DNA of 7,466 nt from an uncultured Cellvibrio sp. (GTDB taxonomy: Bacteria; Pseudomonadota; Gammaproteobacteria; Pseudomonadales; Cellvibrionaceae): assembly GCA_946482385.1 (NCBI GenBank), contig CAMLRI010000091.1, forward strand, positions 1 through 7,466, given 5' to 3'. How positions within the stretch are numbered: the stretch's first letter is position 1; each line of letters opens with the position of its first letter. Positions 1-7,466 of the stretch are shown here, piece after piece. The notes beneath the pieces are model-generated. The model had not been told where the DNA came from. It did no database searches and saw only the letters and a list, made by a program, of their open reading frames with translations. A program made the position numbers and the translations under genes.

Positions 1-481
1 TATAAGCCACAGAGCCGGAGAAACCACCGCCAAAAGTTGGGGTTACGTATTGCACAATATTGCTTGCGCGAATTTCGCCTTTGAATATCTGGGTGATATC
101 ACCTTCCAGGTCATTGAACAGGTCGATTTTTTCCTGCGCCACCTTGGTGGGAGTATCAAAATGGCCACCCATAATAGTACCGGCGGCCCCCTGCAAACCT
201 ATGTAGATATTGCGCTGGCCAAAGGTGCCACTGCTACCGCTGCCATCATCCACTTCAGTTTGGTATTCAAATTGGTAAATAGCTTTAAGGCCGTCGCTAA
301 TTTGCTCACTGCCTTTCAAACCAATGCGCGAAGCATTGCTAACCAATTCAATTTTATCGCCGCTGGCTTCTTCATCAGCATGTTGCAGCGAAACATTGCC
401 CTTACCATAAACAACCACTTCGGCCGGGGCCGCCAGGGGCAGTGCAGATGCAATCAACAGAGCAAGTAGGGATTTTTTCAT
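1..481 (-). CDS. Outer-membrane general porin, N-terminal part (cut by window edge)
   Basis: Read from the ATG at 481, an uninterrupted frame of 160 codons runs off the left edge of the window, so the C-terminal half or more is missing. The protein begins with a classic Sec signal peptide, MKKSLLALLIASALPLAAPA, with likely cleavage after APA. The mature start EVVVYGKGNVSLQ is followed by SRIGLKGSEQISDGLKAIYQFEY and a FGQRNIYIGL/GTIMGGHFDTP stretch. These are hallmarks of the 16-strand trimeric Gram-negative porins (Porin_4/OmpC-like superfamily), which let small hydrophilic solutes cross the outer membrane. The start is supported by AAGGAG eight bases upstream. The gene stands alone after the hvfABC operon with its own 312-base upstream region. 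That region carries PhoB-like sites, suggesting induction by phosphate starvation as for PhoE. The family call is firm. Substrate preference cannot be read from this fragment. Confidence 0.9.
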   Translation of the reverse strand, partial: MKKSLLALLIASALPLAAPAEVVVYGKGNVSLQHADEEASGDKIELVSNASRIGLKGSEQISDGLKAIYQFEYQTEVDDGSGSSGTFGQRNIYIGLQGAAGTIMGGHFDTPTKVAQEKIDLFNDLEGDITQIFKGEIRASNIVQYVTPTFGGGFSGSVAY

Positions 482-489
482 GGAGTCGT

Positions 490-495
490 CTCCTT
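490..495 (-). promoter_or_regulatory. Ribosome-binding site of the porin gene
   Basis: AAGGAG on the minus strand, eight bases before the ATG at 481. It is a near-ideal Shine-Dalgarno sequence and fixes the start directly ahead of the signal peptide. Confidence 0.85.
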
Positions 496-601
496 GAAGA
501 CAGTGTGTTTGTGAGAGCTTTGTATTTGTCGCCCGTGCCTGGTTGGCACTGTTAACAACCTTATCCCCGGTTCAAACACCTGCTGCCTAAGGCAATTTTT
601 C

Positions 602-674
602 ATGACAGACGAATGAAGCTTTGGTTACGGTTCTGCGACTATTATGTGAATGATTTATGACACTTGTGTGACAG
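602..674 (-). promoter_or_regulatory. PhoB-binding (Pho box) array upstream of the porin gene
   Basis: On the minus strand, reading from 674, seven heptamers follow one another every 11 bases: CTGTCAC, GTGTCAT, CATTCAC, TAGTCGC, CCGTAAC, GCTTCAT, CTGTCAT. The four-base spacers are ACAA, AAAT, ATAA, AGAA, CAAA and TCGT. The known PhoB site is CTGTCAT, four AT-rich bases, CTGTCAY. Hand-counted matches per heptamer are 6, 6, 5, 4, 5, 4 and 7 of 7. The first two units (657-674) form a good complete Pho box. The weaker middle units are supported mainly by the strict phase and the A-rich spacers. PhoB/PhoR activates porins such as PhoE under phosphate limitation, so the downstream porin is the likely target. 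Binding is inferred from sequence only. Confidence 0.7.
641..674 (-). promoter_or_regulatory. Predicted PhoB-dependent promoter of the porin gene
   Basis: The best Pho box (657-674) is followed after exactly ten bases by CATAAT (646-641), five of six matches to the sigma-70 -10 consensus. E. coli phoA has the same arrangement: a Pho box replacing the -35, ten bases, then the -10. Transcription would start near 634, giving a leader of roughly 150 bases. Half-sites downstream of the -10 are unusual and could mean a second mode of control or a different start. Confidence 0.55.
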
Positions 675-794
675 CGCAGGCGGGCTTATAGGGAAAAACG
701 ATAAATCCGCCCCACTAAGACTAGTATTGGGCATCTAAAAATCAAATTCAGGTTATTTTTTAGGCACAACCAATTACCCCCAAGGGGTTAGGGT

Positions 795-1535
795 TTAGAT
801 TGCACCGACAAGGCCCAGGCCATACCACTCTTGCAGTAAGGTTTCGGCCTGCTGGTTAAGTAACTGGGGATTGGGGTGTTGCAGCTCCTGGGCGAGTAGC
901 TGTAAATGCGCCCATAAAGGCTGGTTTGGCGATGTTTGCAGCAAATGCAGTAGGCGATGGGTGAGCGCATTGGCTTCGATAAATTTCACCTGATCGGCGC
1001 GATTGCGATATACCACCAAATAGGTTGGCACTACCTCTGTAGGCATAAAACCGGGGCCAATTTTATGTACCGGATAGGAATAGCAGAGGTTCATCACCAA
1101 AGGCGACACCTGTATACAGGTATCCATTAACGATGCAGGCAAAGGCTTGGCGATATCCCACTCGGCCTCGGCCACATCCAAGGCCAGCTCCACCCATTCG
1201 TAATGGGCCAGCTCAATCATAAACGCGGGATCGGTTTCGCGCAGGCCGCGGGTTTGCATTAAATAGGCAAGGAATTCCTGGCTGATTTCCAAAAAATAAG
1301 GCGTTTGGGCGCGGTGTTGCACTACAAAATCCCGCACCAGTAATTGCCAATCACTATCGCTGGTAATGCTGCGCAATACTGGAAAGGCACCGGCAATAAA
1401 ACTTTCAATATTGTTGAAGATTAAATCGCGATAAATGGCCATGCGCCTGTCTTCAATTGCCGGCGGTGGCGGATTGTGTTGCGGGTCGCGCAAATGGGCG
1501 GCAAAGGCCAGTTGGGTTTGCTGGAAGGATTTCAT
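795..1535 (-). CDS. hvfC: HvfC-family RiPP maturation partner protein (DUF2063)
   Basis: A 246-residue cytoplasmic protein without signal peptide or membrane segment. The N-terminal 100 residues match the DUF2063 pattern, named historically a putative DNA-binding domain. Typical stretches are FAAHLRDP, the [12 protein letters not shown] and FPVLR block at 35-55, and LVRDFVVQH near 66-74. A second, less conserved domain follows an [14 protein letters not shown] helix (110-123). Proteins of this family (HvfC/BufC, related to MbnC of methanobactin synthesis) partner the MNIO enzyme, present the precursor peptide and help oxidise cysteines. The ATG overlaps the hvfB stop as ATGA, which implies translational coupling and a 1:1 supply of the two subunits. 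No strong Shine-Dalgarno precedes it. The gene ends the operon. No DoxX gene follows; the next gene is a porin. The call rests on the domain pattern plus the diagnostic neighbours. Confidence 0.88.
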
Positions 1536-2392
1536 AGCGCAAGCGGCTCACTCTGGCGCTGCACACTAGCCGTTTGTATAGCGCTAATCTGCTGCAACTC
1601 TGCCAACAATTCCGCCAGTGGCGGCAGATTAAAATCGCGCTCCAACAAGGTTGGTTTTACACCAAAATGCTGGTAGGCCTCGGCCAATAATTGCCATACC
1701 GGGTCAATGACAGCAGCGCCGTGGGTGTCCACCCGCAAATCCTCTGCTTCGCAGTAATGGCCGGCCACATGAATATAGGCGATGCGCTCGCCCGGCAGCG
1801 AACGCAAAAATGCGTGGGGGTCGTAATGGTGATTAATGCTGTTGACGTAAATATTATTCACGTCGAGCAGGAGCGCGCAATCTGCCTCGCGGATAACCGC
1901 GTTGATAAATTCCGCCTCGCTCATTTCCTGTTGCGGTGCGCAATAGTAAGAGGCATTTTCAATGGCAATGCGCTGGCCGAGAATATCCTGTGCTTCGCGA
2001 ATACGCGCCGCCACATAATGCACTGCTTCTTCGGTAAAGGGGATGGGCAATAAATCGTACAGCTGCCCCTGGTCGCTGCAATAACTCAAATGCTCGGAAT
2101 AGTAGCGGACCTGGTGATCTGCCATAAATTGTTTAATGGCTAACAACAGCTCGCGATTCAAGGGTGCGGGTGAACCAATCGACAAAGACAAACCGTGGCA
2201 AACAAAGGGAAAGCGCTCGGTATAACTGCGCAGCTGTTTGCCCAGCCGGCCGCCAACCCCAATCCAATTTTCCGGCGCCACTTCCATAAACTGAATACTG
2301 GCCGTGTTGGTTTCGCTAAGGGTTTTTAGCAAGCTCCGGCGCAGGCCCAGGCCCGCGCCGGATACATTAGCCGTGAATGAATTCACTGACAT
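1532..2392 (-). CDS. hvfB: HvfB-family MNIO-type RiPP peptide maturase (DUF692)
   Basis: A 286-residue TIM-barrel enzyme of the multinuclear non-heme iron-dependent oxidative (MNIO, DUF692) family. Recognisable blocks in order are [11 protein letters not shown] (12-22), [11 protein letters not shown] (35-45), [12 protein letters not shown] (63-74), YYSEHLSY (97-104), IAIENASYY (142-150), [11 protein letters not shown] (174-184), IAYIHVAGH (204-212), DTHG (222-225) and LLERDFNLP (249-257). The conserved His66, His101, Glu145, Asp177, Asn180, His208, His224 and Glu251 are the probable iron ligands or active-site residues, by analogy with MbnB and TglH. In HvfB systems the enzyme uses oxygen to convert Cys in EGKCG motifs to oxazolone/thioamide pairs that bind copper. 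The substrate gene hvfA ends 26 bases upstream and hvfC overlaps by four bases. The start at 2392 has no strong Shine-Dalgarno, which may keep enzyme levels below precursor levels. The last 25 residues look unconserved. Confidence 0.93.
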
Positions 2393-2418
2393 GGGATAGA
2401 TTACTCAACCGGGAAGGT

Positions 2419-2781
2419 TTACTCGGCTTTTTTATCGCCGCCACATTTACCTTCGCCACACTTGCCTTCACCTTCGGCTTTTTTATCGCCGCCGCATTTA
2501 CCTTCGCCACATTTGCCTTCACCTTCGGCTTTCTTATCGGCACCGCACTTACCTTCGCCGCATTTGCCCTCACCGCATTTGCCTTCGCCATCTTTTTTAT
2601 GCTCGGCACCGCATTTGGCTTCGCCACACTTGCCTTCAGTATTTTCCGCCAGGGTGTAACCCGCTGACAGGTTGTTGGCAGCAAAGCTGGCATCGGCAGC
2701 CGAAGCCATAGGAGCGAGAGCAGTCGATGCAGCAAAAGCAGCGCCAATCATCAGGGATAAAGAAGAGGGTTTGTTATTCAT
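2419..2781 (-). CDS. hvfA: HvfA-family RiPP metallophore precursor with nine EGKCG-type motifs
   Basis: A 120-residue secreted precursor. Residues 1-28 are a Sec signal peptide: positive N-end, hydrophobic core, cleavage after MASA. A short leader-like segment (29-48) contains NLSAGYTLAE, resembling the conserved part seen in such precursors. The rest is a hydrophilic Lys/Glu/Gly-rich core with nine cysteines (52, 57, 69, 74, 79, 91, 96, 108, 113), all in the pattern E-G/A-K-C-G. Eight are EGKCG and one is EAKCG. In Haemophilus HvfA such motifs are turned by HvfB/HvfC into oxazolone/thioamide groups that bind copper. Related bufferins protect cells against copper in the periplasm. Residues 86-102 and 103-119 are identical 17-residue repeats. 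AAGGAG lies seven bases before the ATG, so expression should be strong. It is first in the operon, and hvfB and hvfC follow directly. After the stop, GAG-TAA recurs in frame 18 bases on. The product's modification is inferred from the family, not seen. Confidence 0.92.
   Translation of the reverse strand: MNNKPSSLSLMIGAAFAASTALAPMASAADASFAANNLSAGYTLAENTEGKCGEAKCGAEHKKDGEGKCGEGKCGEGKCGADKKAEGEGKCGEGKCGGDKKAEGEGKCGEGKCGGDKKAE
2423..2575 (-). repeat. 51-bp in-frame tandem repeat in the hvfA core region
   Basis: Three consecutive 51-base units start at 2423, 2474 and 2525. The first two differ at only two positions by hand alignment, both silent (a Cys and a Lys codon). The third differs at about seven positions. 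Each unit encodes 17 residues with two EGKCG motifs and a DKKAEG linker. The near-identity points to recent duplication and a locus that can gain or lose metal-binding motifs by slippage or recombination. Confidence 0.9.
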
Positions 2782-2788
2782 CGTATAA

Positions 2789-2794
2789 CTCCTT
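2789..2794 (-). promoter_or_regulatory. Ribosome-binding site of hvfA
   Basis: AAGGAG on the minus strand, seven bases before the ATG at 2781. It is much stronger than anything ahead of hvfB or hvfC, in keeping with a precursor needed in excess over its modifying enzymes. Confidence 0.85.
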
Positions 2795-2912
2795 GGATAG
2801 GTTTAAAGAGATAGAACACAACACACAACGGCATTAACACTAGCACAATTCCACCGCCGCATAGCCCGGCAGCATCAGGGGCATCTGGCGGTATAAGCAA
2901 TAGCGCTACCCA

Positions 2913-2940
2913 TAGATGCACAAGGGCGCGGCTTGTTACA
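2913..2940 (-). promoter_or_regulatory. Possible ECF-sigma promoter of the hvfABC operon
   Basis: On the minus strand TGTAAC (2940-2935) is followed after 16 bases by CATCTA (2918-2913). This resembles ECF-type promoters with a GTAAC-like -35 and a CGTC-like -10. Known bufferin operons, for example in Caulobacter, are driven by the ECF factor SigF. It lies 130 bases before hvfA in the only spacer available for an operon promoter. The -10 match is imperfect and no sigma-factor gene lies in the window, so this is tentative. Confidence 0.3.
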
Positions 2941-2995
2941 GATCGCCGGTGAATTTAATGGCAACACTGACCTTAACAGCAAGGTAAGATCGCCT

Positions 2996-5900
2996 TTACC
3001 CGGCGGCGGCCATGGCTTGCTCCCACTGCTTATCCATACGCTTATCCGATACTGGCACCTGGGTTTTCAGGGTTTGGGCAAACAGCGATACCCGCAACTC
3101 CTCCAACCACCAGCGGTAATCCATTAGCTCGTTATTTTGCTGCAAACGGTAGTCGCCAACTTTGGCCAGATAGTCCAACAACCGCTGGCGATGAGGCGCC
3201 ACCTGCTGTAAACCCAATTTATCTTTTTGCGGGTTGAGCAAAGCCTTTTCCAGGCGCAAACCTATGGCGCGCAAATAGCGCGGGTACTGGGCAAACCACT
3301 CGCCCGGTGTGTTATATACCAGGCCGGGGTAAAAAAGTTCCGCCAATTGCTGCTGTATATCGCCCAAGCTATAGGCCAGCATCAACATATTTTTTTGCTG
3401 CTTTAGCTGCTTCTTTAAATCCACCAAAAGTGCCAGGCTGGCTTGCAAACTGTTTTCCAAGGCTTGCGCCTGCACAATCAACTGTTCATTCACTTTATCC
3501 AAACAAGCTGCAAATTCTGTAGTGCTGCGCGGCAATTGGTTTTGCTGCGGCAAAGCGATTTGTTTAATGGCCGCCATAATCAGGTCATCCACCACCTGCT
3601 CGCGGTTGCCAATGCCCGCCAGGGTGAGCGCTACCTGCTGGGTTTTAATTAATTCTTTTTGCAGGTATTTCACCTTGCTGCCGGCATTCAGGAATAACAA
3701 ACGCGCCAAGCCGCGCTGGGTTATATGCTGGGCTTGCAAGGGGTTATCCAGCACTTGCAGCGAGGTTGAGGTTTGTTTATCGACCAAAGCCGGGTAAGCG
3801 CGAATGCTGATGCCCGCACGGGGCAGCTGGATGGACTGGGGTAGCTCGGCAAAATCCCATTGGGTTATGCCTTCGCGCTCAATACTGGTCGCCGCCGATT
3901 GGATATTTTGCTGCACCCGTTCGCGGTATTGCTCGCGCAGTGGCGCCAGTTCGCGGCCACTGGCAATAATTTTGCCGCGCTCATCCACCACATGGATATT
4001 AAATTGGTAATAACTATCCAGGGGTTGTTCCAGCCAGGCCTCTTTGGGCACATCCACACCGCTCAGGCGTTTTAATTGCTGCGCCAGGGCCTCGCTCAAG
4101 GGTTTGTTATCGGGGCTGATGCTGGCCAGGATTTTATCCACCACATCCGGCACTGGCACAAAATGTTTGCGCAAATTTTTTGGCAAGCCTTTGATGAGGG
4201 CAATGCATTTATCGCGCAGCATGCCAGGCACCAACCACTCCAAGCGCTGCTCCGGCACCTGGTGCAACAGGCTGACCGGCACATGGATGCTAACACCGTC
4301 GTGCGGGTGCTTTGGCTCAAAGTGGTAGCTGAGGGGAAATTCCATGCCGCGCCATTCAAGGCTGTTGGGAAATTGCGCTTGGGTAATATCCCCAGCGCCG
4401 TGGCGCATCAGGGTTTCGCGGCTGATATACAGGAGTTGCGGGTTTTCCTGCTCGGCCTTTTTGCGCCAGGCTTCAAAGCCCGCCCAATTGACCACAGAGG
4501 CGGGAATACGCTCGCTGTAAAACGCAAAAATAACCTGCTCATCCACCAGAATATCGCGCCGCCGCGCCTTGGATTCCAATTCTTCCAAATCCGCCAGCAG
4601 ACGCTGTTGGTGGGCAAAAAAATCATCTTTGTCGGCCTGTTGGCGGCGTTTGGGATGCTGGCCATACTGCCCCTCCACCAAGGCGGCGCGAATAAAAATA
4701 TCGCGGGCCTGGGCTGGGTCTATATGGCTATAGCTCACCGCTTTTTTCTCGATGATGGTTAAACCATAAAGGCTGATTTTTTCGTAAGCCATTACCTGGC
4801 CGCTGCGGCTGTCGTAATGGGGCTCGAAATACTGACGCTTTACCAAGTGCTCGGCAGCGGCAATCACCCATTCGGGTTCTATTTTGGCTACCGTGTGGGC
4901 AAACAGCTTGGAGGTTTCCATCAGCTCCGCCGCTATAATCCACTTGGGCGTTTTTTTGTAGAGCGAGGAGCCGGGGAATATAGAAAATTTGCGGTTGCGC
5001 GCGCCCAGGTATTCGCGCTCTTCATGATTAAACCCCAGGTTGCCCAACAAACCAGCTAGCAGCGCCTTGTGCACAGCCTCGTAATTGGCAGCTTCGCTAT
5101 TCAAGCGAAAGCCCAGGTCTTTAATCGCCACGCACAATTGGTGATGCACATCGCGCCATTCGCGCAAGCGCAAATAGGAAAGGAATTCTTTTTTGCAGAG
5201 TTTGCGCAATTGGTTTTGCGATAGTGCCTGGCGCTGGGTTTCAAAATAATCCCACAGGCTGACATAGCCGGCAAAATCCGAATGTTCCGCCCAAAAACGC
5301 CGGTGCAACTGGTCGGCGGCCTGTTGTTTTTCCACGGGCCGTTCACGCGGGTCCTGCACCGAAAGGGCGCTGACAATAATTAACAGCTCGCGCACACAGC
5401 CATGCTGTTGCGCTGCCAGCAGCATGCGCGCCAGGCGTGGGTCCAGCGGCAGTTTGCTCAACTGCTGGCCCACCGGGGTCAACTGGTTTTTGCCGTTTAC
5501 CGCGTGCAGCTCTTCCAGCAATTTAAAGCCATCGCTAATCAGGCGGTGGTCGGGGGCATCAATAAACGGGAATTTGTGAATATCGCCCATGCGCAATTGC
5601 AGCATTTGCAAAATCACCGCCGCCAGGTTGGTGCGCAGAATTTCCGCATCAGTAAAGGCCGGGCGCGCATTAAAATCCTCCTCGCTGTACAAGCGGATGC
5701 AAATACCTTCCGCCACCCGGCCGCAACGGCCTTTGCGCTGGTTGGCGCTAGCCTGGGATACAGGCTCAATAGGCAAACGCTGCACCTTGGTGCGGTAGGA
5801 ATAGCGGCTAATGCGGGCAAAGCCCGGGTCTATTACGTAGCGAATACCCGGCACGGTAATGGAAGTTTCCGCCACGTTGGTGGCCAGCACTATGCGCCGC

Positions 5901-6971: not shown

Positions 6972-6998
6972 ATCATAACAAAAAAGCCCGCTTATCAG
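6972..6998 (-). promoter_or_regulatory. Possible hrpA promoter (extended -10) in the tail of the upstream terminator
   Basis: The minus strand carries TGTTATGAT (6980-6972), an extended -10: TG, one base, then TATGAT with five of six consensus matches. CTGATA (6998-6993), a four-of-six -35, lies 15 bases before TATGAT. Transcription would start near 6965, about 22 bases before the hrpA ATG at 6943. This would insulate hrpA from the upstream gene and explains why the ATG at 6976 is probably not used. Confidence 0.4.
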
Positions 6999-7006
6999 TC
7001 GGGCTT
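6980..7006 (-). terminator. Rho-independent terminator after the LamG-domain gene
   Basis: On the minus strand AAGCCCG (7006-7000), a nine-base loop and CGGGCTT (6990-6984) make a perfect seven-base-pair stem. The stem's last two Ts and the following bases make an unbroken run of six Ts (6985-6980). The 5' arm lies within the final codons (Lys-Pro-Asp) of the LamG gene and the stop codon is in the loop. It ends transcription of that gene just ahead of hrpA. The plus strand has no T run, so it acts in one direction. Confidence 0.85.
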
Positions 7007-7466
7007 GGCAATCAAGTCCAGCAGCACAAATTCTGCCGGGGTTAATTTTTTCGGGGTGATCGCCACCTGGGCAATAGCACCATTAAACCAGTGAATTTGG
7101 TTCATGCGCGCGCCTATGGAGGTTTTGCCCTGGGCGGCAATGGGCTGGTAATCCACCTCGCCGCGCAATTCCTGCTGGCCATTAACGTAGGACAAAAATT
7201 CGCGCGACTTATAAGTCACCGCCGCGTGATACCACTCACCTAGCCTATGTACTTTGGTGGGGTCAATCAGGGTGAATTGGGAAAATTCCGATTTGATATA
7301 GGCATCCAGATACCACTGCTTGTTATCGTTTAAGCGCAATTCAATGGTGAGGCGGCGGTTGGGGTTATCGGCGGCTTCTATATGAAAAAAACGCGGTTCC
7401 TGGTTAGCGGGAAATACATCATTAGCTTTAAACACAATTTCGATAGTGAACTCGGTGGCATCCCCC
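6995..7466 (-). CDS. LamG / concanavalin-A-like domain protein, C-terminal part (start outside window)
   Basis: The frame is open from the right edge (7466) to a TGA at 6995-6997, giving 157 codons. The GTG at 7435 could act as a start but would split the domain. In-frame sequence continues upstream (GDATEFTIEIVFKAND), so the gene almost certainly begins outside the window. The pattern is that of a LamG jelly-roll fold: FTIEIVFKAND, RRLTIELRL, a WYLDAYIKSE strand, LGEWYHAAVTYKSREFLSYV, NGQQELRG, TSIGAR and HWFNGAIAQVAI, followed by the closing helix LTPAEFVLLDLIA. Such domains bind carbohydrate or protein ligands and occur in exported proteins of polysaccharide-degrading bacteria. Export cannot be verified because the N-terminus is missing. 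No catalytic domain is visible in this part. The protein ends directly after the domain, so LamG is C-terminal. The gene is closed by a strong terminator and shows no link to hrpA. Confidence 0.8.
   Translation of the reverse strand, partial: GDATEFTIEIVFKANDVFPANQEPRFFHIEAADNPNRRLTIELRLNDNKQWYLDAYIKSEFSQFTLIDPTKVHRLGEWYHAAVTYKSREFLSYVNGQQELRGEVDYQPIAAQGKTSIGARMNQIHWFNGAIAQVAITPKKLTPAEFVLLDLIAKPD

Follow-up and report, generated by a model that had tools for sequence, protein, structure and literature searches.

An HvfA-type captophorin precursor operon from a Cellvibrio-like source and a candidate ECF sigma promoter element linking it to scattered genes

It has been reported that the product of HvfA from Haemophilus, previously described by an oxazolone/thioamide chemistry, is reassigned to a 5-thiooxazole (PMC13419390, PMC13097082), and as such the chemistry that the original prediction for the present locus took as established is outdated. 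In FonA, whose motifs lie in blocks of 2-3-2 and include an EAKCG, all seven sites are described as modified to 5-thiooxazoles with 4 H lost per site, and the peptide FonA67-80, SGEAKCGEGKCGEK, is reported to lose 8 H, or 4 Da at each Lys-Cys (PMC13097082). In MmrA of Microbulbifer, six of six Cys are reported to be modified, and the product binds copper (PMC12538549). By analogy with these relatives, we infer that the peptide encoded at the locus studied here would be modified in the same manner, exported, and would bind copper. The window, by which we mean the whole stretch of 7,466 nucleotides analysed, contains the following features.

2419..2781, minus strand: hvfA-type precursor gene, an ORF of 120 aa (NF050137, 89.6 bits against a cut-off of 19.5; the strict HvfA equivalog NF050188 is missed, 60 against 95 bits)
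2698..2781, minus strand: probable Sec signal peptide, residues ~1-28, its end placed by eye
2638..2697, minus strand: leader, residues 29-48, with L..GY at residues 38-42 (2670-2656), a candidate HvfC docking segment
2440..2637, minus strand: core array of nine E(G/A)KCG pentamers in blocks of 2-3-2-2, from motif layout and the DNA repeat
2608..2622, minus strand: EAKCG, residues 54-58, motif 2, from motif layout
1532..2392, minus strand: hvfB, MNIO enzyme of 286 aa (NF003818, 448.3 bits against 360; PF05114; PDB 3bww, E=2.6e-76)
795..1535, minus strand: hvfC, DUF2063 partner of 246 aa (NF050145, 301.1 bits against 142; PF09836, PF22106; PDB 3dee, E=9.9e-11)
2913..2940, minus strand: candidate ECF sigma promoter TGTAAC-N16-CATCTA (-35 at 2940-2935, -10 at 2918-2913), the single match in the window, with 0 expected

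The original prediction gave no strand for the precursor, which is read from 2781 to 2419, and which these bases do not encode when read on the plus strand. As had been predicted, all nine Cys of the product lie within E-(G/A)-K-C-G motifs, eight EGKCG and one EAKCG, and the linkers AEHKKDG, ADKKAEG and GDKKAEG are present as quoted; the order of the blocks is 2-3-2-2, however, rather than two, two, two and three. The array consists of four 17-residue units, of which unit 2 is longer by one pentamer. The precursor matches NCBIfam family NF050137 with E=7e-26, with no bufferin family among its NCBIfam matches, no Pfam family, and no match to solved structures at E up to 1. HvfB, which shows weak similarity to MbnB, scores 273.6 bits against the bufferin maturase NF050167, below the cut-off of 310. 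Of the proposed 'HvfA/bufferin' label, the HvfA half is thus retained and the bufferin half is not. On this sequence evidence, hvfA is a further EGKCG (HvfA-type) captophorin precursor from a Cellvibrio-like source, and of a kind already known; an array of repeat units such as this is a feature described in PMC12452194. A beta-helix has been published for a mid-size member of the repeat type (PMC12452194), which the AlphaFold model of the hvfA peptide (36 sequences; disordered, mean pLDDT 42) neither confirms nor excludes. At the DNA level, the array is a tandem repeat of period 51 with 3.0 copies and 92% matches, perhaps no more than the amino-acid repeat itself imposes. Within-array permutation of synonymous codons found no pair of units significantly more alike, the best being units 3 and 4 (13 of 16 codons, P=0.063), and recent tandem expansion of the array is therefore not supported.

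The precursor gene is followed by its MNIO enzyme and partner, as predicted, in the order hvfA, hvfB, hvfC, with 26 bases from the hvfA stop to the hvfB start and an overlap of 4 bases between hvfB and hvfC. HvfB and HrpA are 79% and 82% identical, respectively, to their counterparts in Cellvibrio sp. OA-2007. We compared the locus with 80 genome loci, which are the best HvfB matches and not a random sample. The gene hrpA precedes hvfA in the window, and is also found upstream, in the same orientation, in 45 of the 80; a porin-like gene begins after hvfC, with relatives in the same position in 19. Further upstream, beyond hrpA, a partial ORF at 6995-7435 on the minus strand carries a Laminin_G_3 (concanavalin A-like) domain. 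Searches of the ORF list and of protein families found neither DoxX/HvfX nor any gene for a protease or exporter in the window. Published clusters combine these genes in various ways (PMC12452194), and as such we do not take the absence of hvfX from the operon as disqualifying. A tRNA search of the window was negative, and no RNA family reached the Rfam gathering score, including in the long leader before hvfA.

The survey of homologues that had been suggested found the EGKCG motif conserved beside DUF692 genes, with an EGKCG precursor ORF in 70 of the 80 HvfB-selected loci and HvfC at most 500 bases downstream in 77. At the level of whole genomes, the family group carries the precursor domain in 102 of its 144 members, compared with 0 of 14 controls. 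The number of motifs in the 70 locus precursors ranges from 2 to 18 (median 7.5), with nine in 4 precursors and more in 16, and an array of nine or more, found in 20 of 70, is not the special 'repeat expansion' that had been envisaged. Blocks of three, as in unit 2, occur in 14 of the 70 locus precursors and in 18 of 120 homologues, these being the best 120 of 6074 matches with length limited to 0.55-1.75 times that of the query. EAKCG had been regarded as a lone variant and a natural test of whether the enzyme tolerates Ala before Lys. The latter question is answered in the relative FonA, where EAKCG is reported to be modified (PMC13097082). Nor does EAKCG stand alone: among the matches listed, 32 of the 37 proteins that share the leader type of this precursor have it as motif 2, as opposed to 3 of 84 others; judged from these sequences, it is a clade signature, with kinship making the counts non-independent.

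Of 230 pairs of proteins that share 80% or more identity in the leader, 147 differ in motif number, and therefore arrays change faster than leaders, as is also reported for Microbulbifer (PMC12538549). Within the leader, L..GY is present in 115 of 121 proteins among the matches listed, and [LFM]..GY in 69 of the 70 locus precursors. Such conservation suggests that the leader, probably around L..GY, may be the segment on which HvfC docks; every single Ala change ahead of the core of FonA is reported to be tolerated (PMC13097082), which counts against one essential docking residue. Variation in the arrays themselves was also seen. Two Wenzhouxiangella loci, L050 (from ~5575) and L061 (from ~5605), have Lys-to-Ser arrays of EGSCG repeats upstream of hvfB, which vary naturally in the residue preceding the modified Cys, and in L078 (from ~5400) an EGQCG-EGRCG array replaces EGKCG beside an HvfB relative. 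HvfB is also above cut-off in two genomes with no NF050137 match, G021 (C1:3023878-3024669, 401 bits) and G034 (C2:72980-73765, 395 bits), where the precursor is either of another kind or was missed.

Alignment of the hrpA-hvfA gap from the window and five Cellvibrio loci revealed an invariant TGTAACAA together with a TCTA box. Between the putative -10 box of this element and the hvfA start codon lie ~130 bases, which would form a long untranslated leader. The pattern TGTAAC-N16-[CA][GA]TCTA is present in all six upstream regions of the Cellvibrio type and in 0 of 62 others (67 of the 70 loci and the window, three loci with less than 250 bases being left out), and in resampled sequence its count was 0. 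A search for a sigma-70 promoter in 400-3100 gave none, where shuffled sequences led us to expect 3.0. In the five discovery genomes, TGTAAC-N17-RTCTA has 12 sites: 5 before hvfA, from which the pattern came, 5 before an unlinked DoxX-ECF operon, and 2 before a large ORF. In the one discovery genome that was scored, the DoxX protein is HvfX (NF050144, 240 bits against 80), the next gene encodes an ECF sigma factor, and the large ORF is ovoA (641 against 400). The ECF sigma factor of L127 matches Sigma70_r2 (58.1 against 24) and TIGR02937 (84.9 against 42.9), with no equivalog family above cut-off among the 25 listed of 87 families. The small ORF after the sigma gene encodes Cys4 and H-x3-C-x2-C in 5 of 5 genomes (two starts being chosen by hand), and the one of these five proteins that was scored, from L151, matches the anti-sigma family NF052368 (54.5 against 50) and falls below the cut-off of Pfam zf-HC2 (19.9 against 22.2). 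No ECF gene was found beside hvf in the 80 loci, some of which end at a contig edge, by tblastn with one Cellvibrio ECF query at E<=1e-8, which fits a sigma factor acting in trans.

Across 21 Cellvibrio-group genomes the element has 47 sites, of which 33 lie before targets, that is, in the right orientation and within 900 bases of a gene of a kind named from the five discovery genomes: hvfAB at 10, hvfX with ECF at 11, an MNIO gene without hvfA at 6, ovoA at 4, and ECF alone at 2. When the spacing was increased by 3 bases, 0 of 29 sites lay before targets (Fisher P=1.6e-10, the genomes not being independent). Five of the ten hvfA sites are those from which the pattern was derived, and with the discovery genomes removed 21 of 35 sites still precede targets. 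The remaining 14 of the 47 sites have no target, and one of these (L167 from 2085, in G034) lies 53 bases before msrP (NF003767, 473 against 207). A relative of the sigma gene (E up to 1e-30, 66-100% identical) is present in 18 of the 21 genomes, and these are exactly the 18 with sites; G019, G020 and G021 have neither. The hvfX gene is above cut-off in 12 of the 21 genomes, all among the 14 with hvfA and in each separate from hvfB. Every one of these 12 carries the element ahead of hvf, exactly matched in 10 and with a single mismatch in 2. Where hvfA is present but the sigma gene is lacking, as in two genomes, no version of the element has fewer than 3 mismatches, and G025 has hvfX-ECF without an exact site. 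In six genomes that lack hvfA, the element instead precedes another MNIO operon, at L134 (G027), L141 (G034), L148 (G029), L160 (G028), L162 (G031) and L166 (G033), and the one precursor of these six that was scored, from L134, is BufA2 (85 against 60).

These distributions suggest that an ECF sigma and zinc anti-sigma pair, resembling the Neisseria and Haemophilus ones, activates hvfABC and the unlinked HvfX through the element. More broadly, we regard it as likely that this pair controls, from TGTAAC-N16-NRTCTA, a dispersed regulon for periplasmic thiols and metals, comprising hvfABC and the hvfX-sigma operon, elsewhere a bufferin-type MNIO operon in place of hvfABC, and in some genomes ovoA and msrP, such that production of the thiooxazole peptide would accompany that of ovothiol, with one MNIO peptide type exchanged for another between genomes under the same promoter. 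The element could instead be another kind of conserved site, an operator for example, with the sigma gene present simply as the neighbour of hvfX. Consistent with this, the raw number of sites is not raised (47, compared with 67 for the reversed pattern), and sites with a single mismatch are frequent among the matches listed. Against this reading, the element stands in the correct orientation before a range of genes in separate parts of the genome, depends on its spacing, and tracks the sigma gene genome by genome. The element also resembles known ECF promoters, namely those reported for Neisseria sigma-E (-10 CGTCTAAH, -35 GTMAGBWTT; PMC2893595), sigma-F (GTAACC-N16-CGAA; PMC3511200) and ECF16 ((T/C)GTAAC-N17-CGAA), and we consider the operator reading distinctly improbable.

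Combining the locus with its putative promoter, we think it quite probable that hvfABC produces an HvfA-type (EGKCG, Lys-Cys) captophorin which serves as a Cu(I) buffer or sink under an ECF sigma switch. HvfC would bind the leader of the precursor, probably around the conserved L..GY, and HvfB would oxidise Lys-Cys pairs to 5-thiooxazoles with the loss of ~4 Da per Cys, at up to nine per molecule. The modified peptide would then be exported and hold periplasmic Cu(I). An ECF sigma factor whose gene lies elsewhere on the chromosome, sharing an operon with hvfX and the gene for a small zinc-type anti-sigma factor, would switch on hvfABC through the element at 2940-2913, and the window's own genome would presumably carry such an hvfX-ecf locus. 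Expression of the related Microbulbifer genes is reported as undetected with or without copper (PMC12538549), which counts against this account, as does the failure of the precursor to reach the strict HvfA equivalog.

Within the copper-buffer account, it had been proposed that each block might act as a separate metal site; on this view the two or three motifs of a block would form an ordered Cu(I) site, with the number of blocks setting stoichiometry. Blocks of two do dominate (376 of 460 in the best 120 of 6074 homologues), FonBC is reported to modify a peptide with two repeats but not one with a single repeat, and MBP-FonA bound up to four Cu (PMC13097082). However, blocks of one (60), three (22) and four (2) also occur among these 460, the authors of the FonA study suspected stochastic, network-like Cu binding and saw aggregation (PMC13097082), and the predicted disorder of the hvfA peptide argues against ordered sites in each block, making this arrangement rather doubtful. 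The peptide may alternatively serve chiefly as protection from HOCl and other oxidants or from thiol stress, with metal binding secondary. The presence of the element before ovoA (4 sites) and msrP (1 site) in the genus group fits such a role, as does the HOCl induction through RpoE2 reported for a Haemophilus operon with matching domains (PMC7907618; matched by COG/DUF, the name hvfA being absent from the text available). In contrast, relatives bind copper (PMC12538549, PMC13097082), meningococcal sigma-E expression is reported to be unchanged by oxidants (PMC2893595), and Caulobacter sigma-F genes are reported as not induced by ROS agents (PMC3511200); we therefore view a primarily oxidant-directed function as somewhat unlikely. 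Finally, the peptide might be cut and secreted to fetch copper in the manner of methanobactin, a suggestion favoured by the related MNIO chemistry implied by the weak similarity of HvfB to MbnB. The lack of protease and exporter genes in the window argues against a secreted, chalkophore-like role; none is reported near the mmr genes, for which protection is argued (PMC12538549), and bufferins are reported to improve growth under excess copper (PMC12452194). We consider secretion for copper acquisition highly unlikely.

In relation to the buffer or sink that we favour, the kind of precursor is already known, and the modest new element is the putative scattered, promoter-linked regulon. What had appeared a 'repeat-expanded' curiosity becomes a family member with predictable chemistry and a testable switch. 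Reported triggers for such systems differ, being copper for bufferins and HOCl for the Haemophilus gene set, with no expression in Microbulbifer, and an element linking the peptide operon, HvfX, a redox-type anti-sigma factor and ovothiol synthesis points to the stress and the mutant of choice. Sigma genes are reported in Buf1 but not Buf2 clusters (PMC12452194), and the words 'promoter', 'regulon' and 'ovothiol' are absent from the available text of that paper. Among the papers listed on ovothiol or OvoA with sigma regulons, and on Cellvibrio with ECF sigma, DoxX or MNIO, no title or abstract describes this arrangement, most subscription papers being outside the scope of this search.

Among described systems, fontiphorin (FonABC of Fontimonas thermophila, captophorin class; PMC13097082) shares with hvfABC a blocked EGKCG array (2-3-2) that includes EAKCG, and a minimal precursor-MNIO-DUF2063 cluster without DoxX. 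FonA has seven motifs compared with nine in hvfA, its EAKCG is motif 1 of its block rather than motif 2, and the structure of its product is proven, whereas that of the hvfA product is predicted. Oxazolin of Haemophilus influenzae (HvfABC-HvfX; PMC13419390) likewise derives from a Sec-type precursor with repeated EGKCG, together with HvfB and HvfC. HvfB and HvfC of the window score above the equivalog cut-offs while the precursor falls short of that for HvfA, and H. influenzae HvfA has six Cys and an hvfX gene in its operon, which the window lacks. Bulbicupramide (MmrABC of Microbulbifer; PMC12538549), from a related marine and soil lineage, has a conserved leader and a variable number of EGKCG Cys (5-8). 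As in the window, no DoxX is described for it in the text available. Its expression was not detected in the laboratory, and the exact element is absent from the one Microbulbifer locus examined (L073). With regard to regulation, Caulobacter sigma-F/NrsF (PMC3511200) has a GTAAC-type -35 and N16 spacing, as in our element, and controls DUF2282-DUF692-DUF2063-DoxX, but differs in its -10 (CGAA), its anti-sigma factor NrsF (DUF1109) and its DUF2282 precursor. Neisseria sigma-E/MseR (PMC2893595) and Haemophilus RpoE2/HrsE (PMC7907618) resemble the Cellvibrio group in pairing an ECF sigma factor with a small ZAS anti-sigma factor (H-x3-C-x2-C, early Cys) tied to DoxX, DUF692 and DUF2063 genes, and in Neisseria the pair is in one operon with DoxX and has a -10 of CGTCTAAH. 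Unlike in Neisseria and Haemophilus, in the Cellvibrio group hvfABC forms a separate operon joined to hvfX-ecf by the promoter element only, and ovoA and msrP bear the same element in some genomes.
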